A stretch of 29,017 bases of DNA, taken from the NCBI GenBank assembly GCA_025399215.1, contig MU621304.1:1-29017 (forward strand). The letters are read 5' to 3'. Made by a program: the position numbers and the translations under genes. Positions within the stretch are counted from its first letter, which is position 1. Each line of letters begins with the position of its first letter. The notes below the pieces were generated by a model that saw only the letters and a list, made by a program, of their open reading frames with translations, was not told the origin of the DNA and searched no databases. The stretch is from Globomyces pollinis-pini. Its lineage: Eukaryota > Chytridiomycota > Chytridiomycetes > Rhizophydiales > Globomycetaceae. Below, piece by piece: positions 253 through 25,533 of the stretch.

Positions 253-1735
253 TCAGTTATAGACTTTATTAAATTCATTAACAGTATCTGCTAGTATCTT
301 TGTACTTGGACTACGAAAACTTGGTGATTTTTTTAATACATGTTCCAACAGGGGTTCAGCGGGTAATTGAAATGAATTTTCTACACTAAATCGTCCTGAT
401 GCTTCGGTACTATATGTAGGATCGACAGGTTGATCAGGCACTTTTAATTCATTTGTTCCCATTTCTCTTAATGATGATAATACCATCAATCTTTCTTCTC
501 TTCGATAAGCTACTCTGATATTTGGTACATTTGATTTATGAATATCATCCCCACCTATAATATATATAATCATCTTTTCTGGTTACTCGGTCCTGGAATA
601 TCACATTTTGATCCGATCCAACGTTTCTTAAGTTGTAATTCCCATCCTGATTGTAAAACACTATTTCTAGCAATTTCACACATATCCGTTGCACTTAATT
701 TGAAAATCTACATTCAATATAAATCAACATGATTACTTGTGATGCAACACTATATTCTTCAATAAAGGGTTCTTTGGTGAAATGGAATTGTAATGGATCA
801 TCAGTTGATAATGATACATTCAATCCTCTTTAGAAAAATGTCAAGAAAGGATTTCGTTCATAAGTTAAGAATAAAGCATTGTTCGATAAATGGTGAGATG
901 GCTATTCCAATTTGTTCCAAATAAAACCTATTATTAAATGGTATTGATCATTACAGATATTGTAATACTGGAACTTTACGAAGTAGAATTACCATGACTA
1001 ATGCTATGAGATGTTAAGAATGCAGATGCTAAATGATCAGGATCTCCTGATTCTTCACAATGTGGTCGCAACAAAAGTATCTATATACTATTAAAACTTT
1101 TGTAATTTACTAAATCCACGACTTTGACGAAATTTGTTCAAGGTTGTCAAATTCGTATACATATAATATCAATAGTATGAATATGGCGGGTTTAGTGGAA
1201 TATTCCATTCCGGTGGAGGTGTGTGTTCTTCTTTCTGGTTTACTTTCATCATCTACTAAATCAAATCAAATGACTCTTTGAAGGAAAACGTGCAACTCAG
1301 GATGACTTTGTGGATTCTTTGTTACTTCAAAAAAAGGTGCAATAATATCTAATAAATAAGCTAAGTAGGACATTACTTGTGAGTACATCCTGAAATGAAT
1401 TGAACAATCCCGTTTGTTTGTAAAAACTTGTATCAACCAGCATACGTTGTGAGAAATAATTTGGGTTTCCACTACCCATTTTGCCAACTTATCCCATTCA
1501 TCCACCAGATCTGAAATCATTATTAAATTGCAAACAATACCGTCCATTGATTGAAATTCTGTATTCTACCATCTGATACTTGCTTGCTTCTAAATCGGAA
1601 ATGACCTCTATATATTAATTATACATCCAACTCACCCTTTGTTAATTCGGCCACGTATTTTCCCTTGATAAAGCTATCAGTTTTCAAGAACTTCTGAATT
1701 CAGTACTCATCAAAAGCATGGGTTAGTTGAAGTAC
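253..1735 (-). pseudogene. AMP deaminase pseudogene (5'-truncated, multiple lesions)
   Basis: The minus strand carries the C-terminal catalytic half of AMP deaminase, which converts AMP to IMP in purine interconversion. Recognisable blocks in order are [96 protein letters not shown] and DIHKSNVPNIRV. The N-terminal half, including the first metal-binding histidines, is missing. Lesions include TGA for a conserved Gly at 1266-1268, TGA at 1169-1171, TAA for Lys at 830-832, loss of about 17 nt near 1420 (the PRLY block), a 2-nt loss before LRPHC and single-base shifts after SISHG and before LSNNALF. Several ancestral 26-30 nt introns remain intact. The last ~580 bp read cleanly. Neighbouring genes are undamaged, which argues against general assembly error. 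Confidence 0.87.
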
Positions 1736-3545: not shown

Positions 3546-5158
3546 TTATTCAATATTCTTAGTAATAGAATGTACCATTTCTTCTTTCGCAATCAAGTGA
3601 TTAGTTTTAACAATTAAATCCAACAGCGAGTGGATAGTATTGGACCATTCGTTCAAAACGGAATTGGCATCTTTTTTAGCTTCAAAATTGACGATTCCTG
3701 CTAATCGATCAATTCTTGCATAGATTGTCTTTTTTACAACTAAATCTGATAAGAATTCTTCTGCTTCCTATTTTTGTAAGATTGAAATATATTACAGCTG
3801 CAGGCAAATCCAATAATACTGTTAGTTTCTTCAATGTGATTCGTTTGTAATACTTGGAGATGACACGAATGTTCTAAAGTTAATCTGATTGTTTTTGTAC
3901 ATGTTCTATAACTCTCTTGTGAAGTACTTCGTATCTCTTTTTGCCTTCTTCTTGAGCAACTGGGAAAACATTGGTCGCCTTTAAAGTAGCACCATAGAGT
4001 TCATCAATCTTGGACCATCGCATTAGTTCATTGGTAATAAAGCATTTCAAAAAGTTTCTAAAGATTAATACACTCAAACAAAAGGATATAATTTCGTGAA
4101 GTAGAAATAAAAGTCACATATTTGACAGCTTGCAAACACTTACTTGATTAGAGGCAGTTTGGCTAATTGAGGATCTTGATTAATTCTGTGAATTAAGTCG
4201 GATTGTTCATTGTCAAAAGGAGCTAGAGTAATGAACAATACAGAATTGGTCAAAGCCTAACATACATTAAAACAGCAGACTCAAACCTCTTTCCATTGCG
4301 CATCATTTTCTTTGACAATAGGTGTATCATACAAACTTCTGTAGTTTTTGCAAGTCTTGAGAAATTCATCTCCGTGAATTGAATGTTGAATCATTAATGT
4401 ATAGTAACGTATTTTCAAATCAGAATATTGTGGATCCTCAAAGAATTTTGTTGATATTTTTCTACTGATAATCTGAGCTCTGACATAATCCTTTTTGGCC
4501 AAACATAATCTAAATTGTTCCAAAATAAAGTCAGTTTTTTCGCGTTTTTCCATTGAACCATAAGTTTCAACCTGAGAATGTTTGAATACGATACAATTTA
4601 TACCTGAAGTTCTTGGAGTAATTCTGCTGCTTCAACAATTTTTCCTTCAGATTCCTTGATGTTTGTTAATGTACGAGTTAATCTAGCACGTTCCACTTCG
4701 ACGAAGATCTTTACGGTTATTGTATAATGAATTACTTTTCCATCTGTTACAGTTCTTAACGTATCGATTAATTCTAATTTTAAAGTTAAATCCTTTAATT
4801 CATCGACATAAATGATAGCTTGTTGAATCATTTTCGTGACGGCCTAATAATTAAGTTATAATAGAATACTTGTTTTAATAAAGCTCTTTTTTTTGAGAGT
4901 AATACAATATTTTCGTTCAATAGTTTAAAATCTTTTGCTTTATAGCATAAATGAATGATTTGCAAGAGTACTTTAGTATTTGAAGCTAAATCAGCCGACT
5001 AATATGATTAAATTGAGAGAATATACTGTTCTAGAGTGTTTTTCTAGAAGGGCTAATTGATCTAAGCTAGTAAGTAAAGGAGCATTATTTGATTTTTGAA
5101 TTCCTTCATCGACTTCCTTTGACCAATCTTTTTCCATTTTAATTACTTTGTTGTCCAT
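3546..5158 (-). CDS. RPN5: 26S proteasome non-ATPase regulatory subunit Rpn5 (PSMD12)
   Basis: 442 residues after eight introns (26-32 nt, plus one of 86 nt at 4058-4143); the yeast and human proteins are about 445 and 456. It begins [12 protein letters not shown] and matches Rpn5 through [85 protein letters not shown] and a C-terminal PCI domain ending near NKTVYARIDR-like sequence and HLIAKEEMV. Rpn5 is a solenoid/PCI scaffold of the proteasome lid, contacting Rpn11 and Rpn9. One 27-nt intron (4709-4735) is a multiple of three and lacks a stop, so retention would add nine residues within a conserved helix. The gene converges on the beta-lactamase gene (112 bp) and follows the protease gene on the same strand. 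Confidence 0.95.
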
Positions 5159-13562: not shown

Positions 13563-16500
13563 TTAGAAATTAGTAAAGCCACCTTGACTCAATCCACCTT
13601 GACTTTTCATACCATAATCATAAAAATCAAATTGTGATTTGTAATCGTCACCTTCAAGCCGATCAAATTGATTGAAAGGTTGCTGTGATAATTCACTAGT
13701 AGGTTGCGAAAAGAGTGATTGTTGAGATAAATGTGATCGGATCAATCCTCGACCATTAGATTCTTGAGTAAATGATTGTGACATGAATGATTGAGTTTGT
13801 GATTCTTGTGTGAATTGTGAGGTTGGAATCATAGGAATTGAAGATTGTGAAAATAAAGAATTGGAATCAATTTGTGAATGCGGATCATGTAATATAGGCA
13901 TCAATGATTTCCGTTCGCGTTCCTGCTTTGGTCTTGTAGTTCGTTGAGTTCCAGGACCAGATCGAGGTTTGGTAAACTGAATCATCGATGTTTTAAGTGA
14001 ATGTAATGGGCCTTCTACCAAACAATTCTTTTCCTTGAAATACATCAAGAGTTGATACCATAACGAATGCTTTGCTAATACCTTTGGATTTCCAATAATG
14101 ACAAGTCCATACTTGGCACGAGTCAATGCAACATTCAACCGTTTCGCATTCGTCAAAAACCCAATACCAAGGTGTTCATTAGAACGGACACAGGTCACAA
14201 TCATATAATCCTTCTCACGACCTTGGAAAGCATCCACAGAGGCAACTTCCACCTCTTTATACAACTCTTTCTTCAAAGCACCATTAAACTGCATATGTTG
14301 AACCACGTACGATCGTTGACCTTCATACGGAGTCACAACACCAATCTGATGAGGATGAATGCCAGCTTTTAGAAATCGAGTCACACATTTTTCGACCAAA
14401 CCAGCTTCAGTCACATTCAAGTACGATGTTCCAGATGAACTGATTTCTTCTTGTCCAAAACATCCATGAAACATCATCGGTGTTTCCATTACAGGCCATG
14501 GAAAATCAATGTTCTCTCTAATACGTTCTTGAGTAGTTACACCATTTTGTAAACTTCCTTCATAAAACATCTAAAATACAATAAACAAATGATAAATTAC
14601 GTTGGATGGAAAAGCGGATAAACAAGGATGCATACGATACTGAACTTGTAATCGCATAGGTCGGATTCCAAGCGCAATTAAACGTTCAAACAAAGATTGC
14701 GATAACCCAGCCCGAGCAGCTTTCTTGTTTATAATTACAGGTCCCAATTGTTGATGATCACCTACAAGCACAACTTGTTTAGCACCTAGCACCAAAGGGA
14801 TTAACGCTTCCGGTTCACACTAGTTTAAGACTATTATTTAATATACCGCTTGCGAGGCTTCATCAATCAATACTGATCGGAAGGTAAAACGGGCTAATCT
14901 AGGATCCCCGGCACCAGTACAAGTACAACAAATCACATCTGCATGCTCCAACAATTCACGTTCAGCCTTTCTCTTCAACATTTTGTATCTTTTTTCATCA
15001 GCTGAACTTAACTCTCGTAATTCATTCTTTAATCGAATCAATTTTTGTAATTGTGGATCAGTATCGTTATTATTCACTTGCTCATGTAAGGTCAAGAATG
15101 AAACTGAGGATTCGAGTGCTTCGCGTGATTTGGCAGCCAATCTGACTACCTTTAACCCGGTTTGATGGATTTTGGCAGTTAAATGATCAACAGCCACATT
15201 ACTTGGAGCACAAACTAAAACCTGCCCTTGGTTTGCTTTTGCCAAATGGTACACAATCGTTGCAGATGTGACAGTTTTACCCGTTCCTAATATAAATACG
15301 GGTTTGAATTACCAGGTGGTCCTTGAATTAGACTCAATGGTTTCTGCAAGACAGACTTGATGGCATTTACTTGAGAAATATTTAACTCTGGTAAATTTGG
15401 AGCAGTCATGCGTTTAGGTAGATTCGTACGTAGCACTTGAGGTTCGACATCATGACCCAAAAGTTTGTGATAAATATAACTACTAACTGAACTTTCATCA
15501 AATGCTAAATTCTTTAATGCATTTTGCATTCTAACAATGAGTATTTGAATCTATTTACCTATCAAAAGATGTTGGTTTCCAAACAAAATCCACAGAAAAG
15601 TTGTGTGAGCAATCGATAGGTGTTTTATCATCTCGTTTTAATTCGATAGCAACTTCATCCGAATGACCTGAATGTTAATCAAAAGACTAAATACCTAATA
15701 ATCAATAAAATAAGCATTACTATCCGGTATTTTTATGACATGACCTCTTCTTTCCCAATATGGATGCAACTCACCCTTGTACTTTAACAATAATTCATCC
15801 CCTGGAGCTAATCGAATATCACCTAATTCTAACCGTGGTAAAATGAAATTAGCGACACGTTTCATGTTCAATCCCATTGACCAACGAACTACAACTTGTT
15901 CCTGAGTTTGAGATTCTTTCATTTTTTTATCATAATCTGCTTCAAGTTTGACTAGTGGACCAAATATATTTTGATATTGGTAAGCATCATCGTAGGTTAA
16001 GAGTACAGGTTGTGGTTCATCATCCATTCCTGGCTTTTCCAAATCTTCAAGTGTTGCAGTAGCATTTTCTTTCCAGATATCTTCTAGTTTAATAATTTGT
16101 TGTGTAGTAATATGTCTAGACCTTAACTGTTCTTGATCGGTTGGTACTTTAACTAACCAAGGTAAGAAACTGCGGTCTTCAATCAAAGGTAACCATTGAG
16201 TTAAATCCCAATTCACATCTTTACTACTAGTTGATCCAGCACATGGTTGTCTTTTTTTGTTAGGAAGTATTCATACCTAACGGTAAGTGGCTAAATAAAT
16301 ACCTGCAGAGTAATACTACAACAGTATCACTTTTAGCAGGAATAAAACCCAATAAGAATACATTACGATATCCACAGTTATAACATTCCAAGTGAGTGTC
16401 ACCTAAAGGAGAGTCTGGATGTAAACAGACTTCTTTATGTTTTGCACGAACCAAATGAGAGATGATATGAGAGCCAGAAGTATTTCCTCTAGCATTACAG

Positions 16501-17076: not shown

Positions 17077-17590
17077 ATGAGTGGACAAGAAGCTGCTATT
17101 GCAAGATCATTCGTTGACTTTTATTACGCTACTTTCGATAGAAATCGTCAAGAATTATTACCACTTTATGTAAATTAATCAAAATAAATTTAATCTTATT
17201 AGAAACCTCATTCAATGTTGACTTTTGAAGGTCAATCATTCCAGGGTTCAAATGCTATCGTTGAAAAATTAGTGGTATGCTGTTTATTATTCACTTTTTT
17301 ATAGGTATGAATTCTTTAAATTATTTATTGATTCATTTCTTTATAGTCTTTACCTTTTCAAAAAGTTCAACATCAAGTCGTTACTGTAGATGCTCAACCT
17401 TCTAATCCTCAACAAGGTCCTGTATTAGTTTCTGTTACTGGTCGATTATTGGTACTTTTTATCTTATTTAAATCTTTAGGTTGATGAAGAACAAAATCCT
17501 CAACAATTCTCTCAAACTTTTCAACTTGTTCCTGATAATGGTTCTTATTATGTCTTTAATGACATTTTCAGACTTAACTATGGTTATTAA
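17077..17590 (+). CDS. NTF2: Nuclear transport factor 2
   Basis: 126 residues, the normal NTF2 length, after introns of 33, 72 (tandem 30+42) and 28 nt. It starts [20 protein letters not shown] and has the family blocks [51 protein letters not shown] and [23 protein letters not shown]2 is a small cone-shaped homodimer that binds Ran-GDP and FxFG nucleoporins and returns Ran to the nucleus. It is transcribed divergently from UPF1. Confidence 0.97.
17275..17346 (+). other. Tandem intron pair (30 + 42 nt) in NTF2
   Basis: The site between KLV and SLPF holds 72 nt that split exactly into GTATGCTG...TTTTTATAG (17275-17304) and GTATGAATTC...TTTATAG (17305-17346). Both units start GTATG and end TATAG, and no exon base lies between. 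A single 72-nt intron is the alternative; it would be the second longest in the window. Confidence 0.65.
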
Positions 17591-17789: not shown

Positions 17790-19924
17790 ATGAAATCTCC
17801 TAAATCTTCAATATCAAAAGGAGATTCAAAATCAAATAAGGTATTCATAAATTCCATTTTAAAAAAATTAAGAATGTTAATATTGATCAACAACTCATAG
17901 AATCTTTATCAAGTGATGATTTCGAATTATTGGAAATATTATGTAATTGTGTTAGTGGAGATACTGCTGCTACAATGGCAAAAGGAATGTTAAAAGTTTT
18001 AGATAAATATCCTGGTGCTACAGAAAGCTTCCTAAAAAGAATCATTAAAAAGAGAATGATGGATTATAGTACATTTTATTGATTTATTTAAATTATTAGG
18101 AATGAGAAGTAGAGATTTAGCTGATATCACTCGTGATAATGGGTAATTTGTATGTATTAACTAAATTATAGGTATTCAATCATTTATTATTAACAAATAT
18201 AGGTATACTAATATCAATTATTAACCAATATAGGTAAAACTATTCGTTTTGTATTAATCTATTTAGTCTTGTGACAATGTTATTGATAGCATATGCACGT
18301 CAAGAAGGATCATCATTTTTAAATCAATCCATTACTCAACCATTAAAATCAATCTTACCTTTACTAGCAGATTGTGAAATCGATCCACAGAAGATACATT
18401 TACAACCTCCAAATAATACCACTCAAGATATAAACACTAAACTTCTCTCTAATCGTCATAATTTACAATTAGCTTGTCAACAATTGTTTATCACCATATT
18501 TGATTTTTCTAAAAAACCACCTCCAAAATTATTATCAATGTGTCATTTTCTTTCTAAAAGTGTGGATGAAGTATTAAAGATGGAAATCAAAGTCATTCCA
18601 CTACCGGCATTTCAAATTGATCGATCAACAAGTGTATCAAGCCATATGGGAAAGGATGAGTTGGGAAGAAAAGGATCAAGATTGGGTAATAAGAAACGAA
18701 CAATATCCCAAAATTTACAATTACCAATGAATTTGTTGGGTGCTACTCCAGCTGTATCTACCGCATTAGCGACTTCAAATACATCAGTGGCTCAACCATC
18801 TGTTGCTGAAGGTCGTTTATCAAAGTCCATTACTGTTTCCACGAATCTTGGTATATCAAATCCTCCCTTGAGTAATTCTGCCGCAGTCATGACAACTGAA
18901 AATTCAATCAATAGTCAAGCTTTCGATCAATCTGTTGGTGTTCTGAATAGAAATGGTACGAATCAATCCAAAGCAAATACACCTACAGCATCTACCGATC
19001 TATCACCAGAGAACAAAACCATGTCACCGACATTGGAAGTAGCAGAGCCAACAAATTCAGTAGCTAATTTAGGAAATTTATCGATATCAGATAAAGTGGT
19101 GGGATCATTCATGTTTCTTCGATTCATTATTCCAGGTAACTTTAATAATCATAACAAGTAGCCATCACATCACCCGAAAGTAATGCGGCATTTACAGAAA
19201 AACTCAGTCCTCATGTACGTCGAGGACTTGTTTTATGTGGAAAGTTATTAACATCTCTATGTAATGACAATGAATTTGGTCATAAAGATCTCAATTTAAT
19301 GGAATTTAATGGATTTCTAGTTCCATACAGACAATCCATGAAAGGATTTCTAGAAATGTGTTCAGCCGAAGATAATTCATGGGTATTGAATATCAAACTA
19401 AACCTTAGGAATCAACCAACAAAGTTGAAGCGAATGTATCAACACGACTTAAAACCATGAAAACAGGTAAATCAACACAATATGGGTCAAGTCCCACGAT
19501 ATGCAACCCAACCAAACAATCATCCGTCAAAGCTCATCATGGACGTACAGCCAGTCAACCACTTGATGGTATTCCACCACAAATTGAAAATGAACCACGT
19601 TTTAAATCACTCAATTCCAAAGTCAAAGGACAATCATTAAGTGCTGAAAATCTACGTACCAAAACTCTTCCCACATATCCACAAATCGAACCTGAAATAT
19701 CATCCCTACTATTATCCATTTCCAAAAATCTTGAACGATTTGATAAAGATATCCAAGATCGTAAAAAAACATTAACCAATGATAAATCCGAATTATTAGT
19801 GTCAAAATTCAATCATTTCAAGGATTTATTAGATCATTCTCCTTATATCTGTGAATCCGAACCTGGAACTTTTAAAAAGAAATCTTCTTGGTGGTTTAAA
19901 ATTTGGGGTGCTTTTAAAATATGA
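17790..19924 (+). CDS. Ras GTPase-activating protein (RasGAP domain)
   Basis: 631 residues after introns of 32, 31, 124 (tandem 29+31+31+33), 26 and 26 nt. The RasGAP domain spans roughly residues 50-400. RSRDLADITRDNG contains the likely arginine finger (Arg of TRDN, aligning with FRGNS in neurofibromin), followed by LVTMLLIAYARQEGSSFL, SFMFLRFIIPAITSPES (the FLR motif) and VRRGLVLCGKLLTSLC. A serine/threonine/asparagine-rich insert of about 130 residues, probably disordered, interrupts the domain before the FLR block. The C-terminal ~170 residues include a possible coiled coil (LERFDKDIQDRKK) and a basic/aromatic end. It should switch off Ras-type GTPases; the closest subfamily is not clear. 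The ATG at 17790 follows an AATA context 199 bp after NTF2. Confidence 0.88.
18143..18266 (+). other. Array of four consecutive mini-introns in the RasGAP gene
   Basis: One intron position, inside the Gly codon two residues after the arginine finger, holds 124 nt that divide without remainder into four GT...AG units. They are 18143-18171 (29 nt), 18172-18202 (31), 18203-18233 (31) and 18234-18266 (33). Each unit has a TATTAAY branch-like motif near its 3' end and ends in TATAG or TTTAG. Units 2 and 3 agree at 24 of 31 positions by hand alignment, sharing TTATTAAC followed by AATATAG. Removing all four rejoins RDNG to LVTMLL in frame. Each unit alone has the size of an ordinary intron in this window. 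Confidence 0.75.
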
Positions 19925-23878: not shown

Positions 23879-25533
23879 TTAATGCTTGATACAAATGGTT
23901 TTTTCCTAAAAATCAGATAAGAAAACATTCAAACCTCGCAAAAGAAATGCATGGAATAATCTTTGCCTTCTCTTCCCAATCCAGAATTCTTGACTCCACC
24001 AAATGGCATGTTCAAGTCTCGTGTCATCCATGTATTAACCCATACTGTTCCAACCTTCAAGCCTCGAGCAACTCGATTGGCTTTTCTGCCATTTTCAGTC
24101 CATACACTGGCAGATAGTCCATATTCAGTCGCATTGGCATAACCAATTACCTCTTCTTCAGTCTTGAAAGGACTGATTGTAACGACAGGTCCGAATATTT
24201 CTTCTTTCTGGCATCTAGATTCAGTTGGATGTAATCTAAACATCAATTAATATAACAATTTGGTACCCTGTGATAACTGTAGGTCTCAAAAAGTAGCCTG
24301 ATTGTAACTGTTGGTCTTGAATACGTGACCCACCACAATGGATTTTACCACCTTCTTGTTTGGCGATTTCAATATAAGACACAACCTTTTCTAAATGTTG
24401 AAGACTTGCATAACGTGAAGATGATACTGTTTACCTAACCAATGCTATTTAAAAGTAATTAGTGATTTAAAAGTGTTACCACCCATCTGTGTGCTCGGAC
24501 TAGTAGGATCACCAACAATCAATTCATTTGCCTTTTTCACAAATTCAGTCACAAATTTTTCGAATATGGATTCTTCAACAAAAATTCTTGATCCACACAA
24601 ACATATTTCACCTTGGTTAGCAAACGATGAACGAATAGATGTAGTCAGTGCTATGTATTTAAAAGATATTATCTTACCTTCATTAAAGTCTGCATCTGCA
24701 AAAATGATGTTGGCATTCTTTCCTCCAAGCTCCAAAGACAACTTTTTGTTCTGTTTTGATGCAGCATTATATATAATACCACCAGTGACGGTACCTAATT
24801 GATAATTAGTATTTAAAAATTACCTCCAGTAAAAGAAATTAATGGAACTTGAGGATGATTGACAAGGAAGTTCCCTGCGTTTGGTCCAGTTCCAAAAATC
24901 ATATTAACAACTCCTTTTGGAACACCTACATCTTGCATGACTTGACATAACATCCAAGCAGTAACACTGGTGAATTCACTAGGTTTACACACGCTGGTAC
25001 ATCCAGCTTGAGGGAAAATTAGTAAAATTGTACATACATGCCATACAAGGAGCAATTTTCCAGGTTAGCAGATACAATGGTAGATTCCATGGAGAAATTA
25101 AAGCAGCAACACCAACAGGGTCCTTGACAACAAAGCTATGAGCAACTCCATCCAACTCTGTATAGCGTTCCTGTTCATGCAACATACTGGTAGCAAAGAA
25201 CCTAAAGTTATAAATTGCTCTAGGGATATCGACAGTGCGAGCCAACGACACTGGTTTTCCTTGATCCTGAGATTCAGCTAGGGCAAACTCTTCCAACCTT
25301 GCCTCTATTCCATCAGCAATCTTTAGCATTAAATTTGATCTAAATTGTCTTGTAGTCTTAGACCAAGTCAAAAACGCTTTTGAAGCAGCTTCAACAGCCA
25401 ATTCCACATCAACATTATTTGAATTTGGTATTTTTGCAAAGACAGTTGCATTTGCAGGATTTAACGAATCCAAATAAGTCTGATTAGAGGGCGCAAGAAA
25501 TGAACCATCGATAAAGTTTTGTAATTGATGCAT
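23879..25533 (-). CDS. 2-aminomuconic semialdehyde dehydrogenase (ALDH8A1 type)
   Basis: 480 residues (human ALDH8A1 is 487) after introns of 31, 29, 27, 35, 30, 31 and 29 nt. It starts MHQLQNFIDGSFLAPSN. Conserved blocks are AESQDQGKPVSLARTVDIPR, ISPWNLPLYLLTWKIAP, KPSEFTSVTAWMLC, LISFTGG, SLELGGKNANIIF, FANQGEICLCGSRIF (catalytic Cys in GEIC), EEIFGPVVTISPF and MPFGGVKNSGLGREG. The FANQGEICLCxSRIF and EFTSVTAWMLC forms favour the ALDH8 subfamily over betaine or general ALDHs. It oxidises 2-aminomuconate semialdehyde in the kynurenine pathway. Introns four and five are separated by a 10-nt exon. The last exon ends EKTICIKH, as in ALDH8. Confidence 0.9.
24405..24479 (-). other. Two mini-introns separated by a 10-nt microexon in the ALDH gene
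   Basis: On the minus strand, intron 24479-24445 (35 nt) is followed by a 10-nt exon, CATTGGTTAG (24444-24435), and intron 24434-24405 (30 nt). The assembled reading is QMG-ALVS-LQHLEKV, matching the conserved ALDH block GA(M/L)VS..HLEKV. Skipping the exon would lose the frame. The exon itself ends TTAG and is followed by GTAA, so it could be mis-recognised as intron sequence. Confidence 0.75.

Follow-up and report, generated by a model that had tools for sequence, protein, structure and literature searches.

Burnette 2005 is cited as a reference for recursive splicing at Drosophila ratchet points. In the accessible portion of one report, such splicing in long Drosophila introns takes place at zero-length exons, the ratchet points (PMC8605326). 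Stwintrons are spliceosomal twin introns of fungi in which an internal intron interrupts the donor, branch or acceptor of an external one, as defined in the available sections of three papers (PMC7138796, PMC5639578, PMC12403724). For the human UBC gene, excerpts of a published study describe a tandem AGGT array with dual-specific splice sites and propose repeat expansion as a source of introns (PMC10809524). Introns gained through the expansion of repeats or through tandem duplication are also described in the parts available of work on Cryptococcus (PMC2395259) and potato (PMC4974935).

The stretch of DNA analysed here (the window; 29,017 nucleotides) is the entire contig C215 of Globomyces pollinis-pini, a Rhizophydiales chytrid whose genome comprises 18.55 Mb in 459 contigs. 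Intron models throughout are predictions of this analysis. On the forward strand, the window carries a RasGAP-domain gene (17790..19924), as judged from its spliced translation, a match to Pfam PF00616 (E 1.1e-16) and a deposited protein of the same species, P0001 (BC833DRAFT_162530), that is 100% identical over the overlap. Its exons are placed at 17790-17840, 17873-18068, 18100-18142, 18267-19135, 19162-19382 and 19409-19924. Four of the intervals are predicted ordinary introns of 32 nt (17841..17872), 31 nt (18069..18099), 26 nt (19136..19161) and 26 nt (19383..19408), all supported by the spliced translation, and the joins of the last two are also found in P0001.

The fifth interval is different. 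A preliminary description of this DNA, made from the letters alone, had read positions 18143-18266 as four abutting GT..AG units of 29, 31, 31 and 33 nt, and this proved to be correct to the letter. Units 1 (18143..18171), 2 (18172..18202), 3 (18203..18233) and 4 (18234..18266) together make up 124 nt and meet at AG|GT junctions (18171/18172, 18202/18203 and 18233/18234) with no exon base between them. Each unit was described as being as long as a normal intron; the four other modelled introns of the gene measure 26 to 32 nt. Each was also said to have its own branch-like motif; TATTAA is indeed present in all four, and the motif is looser genome-wide (YTRAY). When all 124 nt are removed, the reading frame is restored in the spliced translation (..DITRDN-G-LVTMLLIAYARQEG..), and the alignment across the join is free of gaps against P0001 and five of six chytrid relatives (P0002, P0003, P0004, P0006 and P0007), P0005 being the only one to differ there. 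Every way of retaining at least one unit (15/15) introduces a stop. Furthermore, when the dinucleotides were shuffled and the ends kept fixed, only 5 of 20,000 sequences could be tiled into units of 22-40 nt. The reported likeness of units 2 and 3 (24 of 31 positions, ungapped) also holds: with trimming and gaps their identity is 0.80, which exceeds the 99.9th percentile (0.76) of 3000 cross-array unit pairs and supports the suggested tandem duplication at least for these two units. Unit 3 has no other copy in the genome at <=3 mismatches.

An excess of AG|GT junctions at one-intron spacing across the genome, which the preliminary description had raised as something to look for, is real. We counted pairs of TAGGTA on both strands in classes of 15 spacings, with the reversed pattern as control. 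There are 61 pairs with gaps of 5-19 nt (control 303), 360 with gaps of 20-34 nt (control 266), 52 with gaps of 35-49 nt (control 257) and 140 with gaps of 50-64 nt (control 235). The count at one-intron spacing is thus about six-fold higher than in the adjoining classes while the control stays flat (235-303), and the junctions therefore peak at one and at two intron lengths. Three consecutive TAGGTA junctions occur 105 times, as opposed to 12 for the control. If unit numbers are assumed to be geometric, these spacing counts give an estimate of about 306-400 arrays with at least three units and about 841-898 in total. The array pattern is real, strongly non-random and genome-wide. AAGGTA pairs (n=143) were also tried as a junction marker and set aside as a poor one, those among the 100 listed looking mixed and many of them coding-like by eye.

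The pairs at two-intron spacing bear on whether internal junctions are kept. Among the 100 two-unit TAGGTA intervals listed (of 140), 86 have a middle AGGT at a permitted place, compared with 4% of shuffles. In 59 of these 86 the middle junction is exactly TAG|GTA, and the others are mostly TAG|GTT, AAG|GTA and CAG|GTA, the usual splice-site variants of this genome. The 14 of the 100 listed that have no middle AGGT (~20/140) do not exceed the background of 23/52 in the neighbouring spacing class, and thus there is no surplus of decayed junctions. Moreover, 140 of 187 adjacent unit pairs are less than 0.667 identical (the 95th percentile of unrelated introns), and their junctions are nevertheless intact. 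Because the junctions persist while the units diverge, it is reasonable to propose that selection acts on the internal junctions and hence that they are used. The internal AG|GT junctions therefore seem to be maintained, which favors the separate splicing of every unit.

We modelled 63 arrays, each of 2-12 units, with 8 coming from the window and random stretches and 55 from loci chosen for their TAGGTA chains. In the window and five 10 kb stretches picked by contig number, with introns called by a gene finder, 8 of 152 intron positions are in arrays (4/93 excluding the window). Among these 8, one was rebounded by reading the sequence, one in an aldehyde dehydrogenase-like gene of the window (45+44 nt; 24391-24479) is doubtful and was left out of the verified arrays, and one is a predicted array near a gene start (L065, minus strand). 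The second array of the window (17275..17346, plus strand; 30+42 nt) is in an NTF2 gene, where residues 8-122 of the Pfam NTF2 match cross the join. The third (15668..15720, minus strand; 26+27 nt) is in a UPF1 helicase gene, where the Pfam UPF1_1B_dom match (residues 28-119) crosses the join at residue 90.

Conserved genes host 22 placed arrays, and a Pfam match crosses the join in 17 of them. The other five were placed by the alignment of relatives (RasGAP) or by weaker matches (SEC22-like, MCM and two in one katanin-like WD40 gene). The array bounds for pantothenate kinase, MCM and the WD40 gene in L065 were settled by reading the sequence. Several host genes are what we take to be Ran, SEY1, SEC22, katanin, APC8, CSTF64, MAK, SNF1, RPN5 and SNRNP40, and their joins were judged by motifs presumed to be typical of these proteins.

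The longest array, in a protein kinase gene, has 12 units (26, 25, 34, 32, 32, 28, 29, 29, 32, 36, 28 and 34 nt; 365 nt in all) at the join VKIT|DFGLSNF, which a Pfam match crosses, and none of 20,000 shuffles reproduces its tiling. A search with 180 residues of the kinase protein at a cut-off of 1e-70 gave no match, the cut-off probably being too strict. A phytanoyl-CoA dioxygenase-like gene (L043, contig C12) has 10 units in 285 nt at the join IFK|QPDIGGEV, again with a Pfam match across it. The protein deposited for this gene (P0011) has 19 extra residues that are exactly the translation of array units 4 and 8 and that are missing from all five aligned relatives. In the deposited model, internal AG|GT junctions therefore act as exon boundaries. 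A pantothenate kinase gene has a 9-unit array at GG|TSLGGGT, also crossed by a Pfam match. At L072 (contig C451), the model of a single pantothenate kinase-like gene contains three arrays (9, 7 and about 5 units), and two more, of 5 and 2 units, were modelled on the opposite strand.

The units resemble ordinary introns in several respects. YTRAY is present in 55% of array units, 58% of single introns and 30% of shuffles (135 GTA..TAG units out of 185 chain units, compared with 317 single introns), and the motif lies at a similar distance from the 3′ end in units and single introns. Mean lengths are also close (29.5+-2.9 nt for chain units and 28.6+-3.1 nt for single introns), partly by construction because the chains were restricted to spacings of 22-40 nt and the single introns to 24-38 nt. 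Lengths that are multiples of three are underrepresented among single introns (98/369, p 0.003; 34/126, p 0.08, in the window and random stretches alone). Such 3n depletion, sought as a sign of individual splicing, is absent from the array units (74/235). As far as the available parts of the literature state, introns of 3n length are depleted in Paramecium, like the single introns here, and some ciliates have introns of ~25 nt with the same depletion; the word "tandem" is absent from the ciliate short-intron paper.

Longer introns also appear to exist in this genome. An RPN5-like gene of the window (4058-4143, minus strand) has an apparent intron of 86 nt and the WD40 gene in L065 (3116-3234, minus strand) one of 119 nt, and neither can be tiled by internal AG|GT junctions. 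Their joins were judged by motifs that we presume to be right, and the host genes look conserved. Longer introns therefore seem to be tolerated, a ban on them is not supported, and the notion in the preliminary description that the spliceosome here handles only very short introns is weakened. A flat-length intron model extending to 260 nt produced many long introns that were judged false, and it was replaced. At about 253-1245 (minus strand) of the window is a gene that we assume, from its motifs, to be AMP-deaminase-like; read by eye, its conserved stretches seem to contain one additional base and a stop codon in frame. Coding-like sequence at this locus was absorbed by the gene finder into two introns (152 and 163 nt), and the gene seems to be a pseudogene or an assembly error.

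Some units are evidently copies of their neighbours. Identity between units of one chain reaches 100%, and 24 of 131 adjacent and 28 of 201 non-adjacent same-chain pairs lie above the 99th percentile of cross-chain pairs. Measured against unrelated introns, 31 of 187 adjacent pairs are at or above the 99th percentile. A genome-wide search for dispersed copies of two tested units at <=3 mismatches found none outside their own arrays. The exon context is also distinctive: 19 of 22 arrays are flanked by exon AG| or |GT, compared with 121 of 369 single introns, and both flanks occur together in 5/22 and 7/369, respectively. Four arrays that are positive for AG| or |GT (Ran-like, the first of NOT3, MAK-like kinase and VPS35) were then dropped because the TAGGTA search may have favored their discovery, and the preference persists (15/18 vs 121/369, Fisher p 2.5e-5). 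This preference suggests that arrays are born by exact tandem duplication, although insertion at proto-splice sites would yield the same one. Since the exons flanking the RasGAP array supply neither AG| nor |GT, a duplication through the flank is unsupported for this array. At L075 (contig C68), the array's first unit and its downstream exon both start with GTAAAAGA, a repeat of 8 bases that may be a trace of the duplication from which the array arose.

We consider it rather probable that four complete spliceosomal introns stand in tandem in the RasGAP interval, each removed individually, and that arrays of this kind number between several hundred and about a thousand in the genome. Judging by the letters of the DNA, individual removal of the units is likely, and bringing two neighbouring codons together probably takes several rounds of splicing at the same place. 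Every unit would be recognized by intron definition and excised separately in a stepwise manner, probably successively during transcription, with each AG|GT junction serving as the acceptor of one unit and the donor of the next. Because every unit is complete, any order of removal would work and would leave an identical mRNA. Perhaps arrays are born when a short intron is duplicated exactly by way of an AG or GT direct repeat provided by the exon context. Misalignment between two AGs (at the exon end and the intron end) or between two GTs (at the intron start and the next exon) would produce an exact GT..AG copy. Arrays would lengthen through further duplication, and their units would diverge while selection keeps the splice sites and branch-like motifs.

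Some of the same observations could be explained by one longer intron that has grown by internal tandem duplication and is removed in a single step from the first donor to the last acceptor, leaving the internal GT and AG as relics. Near-identical units show that duplication occurs, array units have no 3n depletion, and, to judge by the apparent 86- and 119-nt introns that have no internal junctions, an interval of 124 nt could be removed at once. Relics should decay, however, and the middle AGGT is kept in most of the listed two-unit intervals, those lacking it are no more frequent than in the neighbouring class, and the 140 pairs that have diverged to the unrelated range have intact junctions. 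We therefore regard a single long intron as unlikely. That AG|GT words arise by chance within AT-rich introns deserves almost no credence: TAG and GTA are common in such a genome, yet shuffles very rarely tile the window array and never the kinase array, and the spacing peak against a flat control refutes chance for the genome-wide pattern.

Two further explanations concern the source of the units. Mobile introners or reverse-spliced introns from other sites might have inserted repeatedly at AG|GT, which would account for the many neighbouring units with no recognizable similarity and is compatible with the exon AG|GT preference. We think this quite improbable, given that the two tested units have no copies elsewhere at <=3 mismatches and that units of the same chain resemble each other more than those of different chains. 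The preliminary description had also offered the erosion of microexons, in which case the units would be leftovers of separate introns whose intervening microexons shrank to zero length. AG|GT junctions would be expected there too, but up to 11 exons would have to erode exactly to zero at one codon, neighbouring units can be identical, and at both of the joins examined in relatives, their proteins align collinearly with those found here (dioxygenase, 5/5; RasGAP, 5/6). Erosion is thus unsupported, and we judge it very improbable. The preliminary description as a whole is partly supported.

If each unit is indeed spliced as a complete intron, the arrays would form a natural series, from 1 to 12 introns per fixed position, in which the order, speed and fidelity of minimal-intron splicing can be studied. 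They also constitute what looks like an active route by which introns multiply without altering the coding sequence. On balance, we favor the view that they are a new class of gene architecture, with trains of introns at roughly a thousand sites of a single nuclear genome, a spliceosome that acts up to a dozen times per exon-exon junction while rebuilding the next donor in each round, and introns whose AG and GT termini allow them to be copied exactly. An intron's defining splice signals would therefore serve as the template for its duplication as well. The arrays disturb annotation as well, since P0011 keeps units 4 and 8 as exon. These residues stem from either prediction or partly spliced RNA, and the arrays may cause further such errors in the Globomyces pollinis-pini genome.

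Arrays of short complete introns came up nowhere in our search of the open-access literature, which covers few subscription journals. Among the described systems, which are compared here as far as the available portions of the cited reports describe them, stwintrons are likewise complex fungal introns that need several splicing reactions at one position. There, the introns are nested and the order is forced, whereas the units here are complete and unnested: each RasGAP unit has a GT start, an AG end and a TATTAA word of its own, and the junctions are AG|GT. The UBC array resembles ours in its regular AGGT spacing within a tandem repeat. In UBC, AGGT acts as both acceptor and donor, a dual use that the sequence would permit here. 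However, the UBC units are coding monomers that are spliced variably, and those in Globomyces are non-coding, intron-sized and must all be removed. As in Cryptococcus and potato, new intronic sequence is made by duplication, and both the 0.80 identity of RasGAP units 2 and 3 and the 31 of 187 highly similar adjacent pairs agree with intron tandem duplication. The gained introns of those species sit within repeated or duplicated gene sequence, whereas the copies here abut without any exon. Introners are characterized by near-identical copies over many genes, and the two units searched at <=3 mismatches had 0 copies outside. The arrays also resemble Drosophila ratchet points, where acceptor and donor are also juxtaposed with zero exon bases and the donor is rebuilt after each step. 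The RasGAP junctions share this abutting arrangement, and the interval, at 124 nt, is not one of the long introns that are typical of the Drosophila cases but do not strictly define them. Here, up to 12 complete minimal introns are spaced at ~30 nt in a fungus with tiny introns, and they would probably be used stepwise. We therefore propose that the Globomyces arrays be placed, as a putative new variant, within zero-length-exon splicing.
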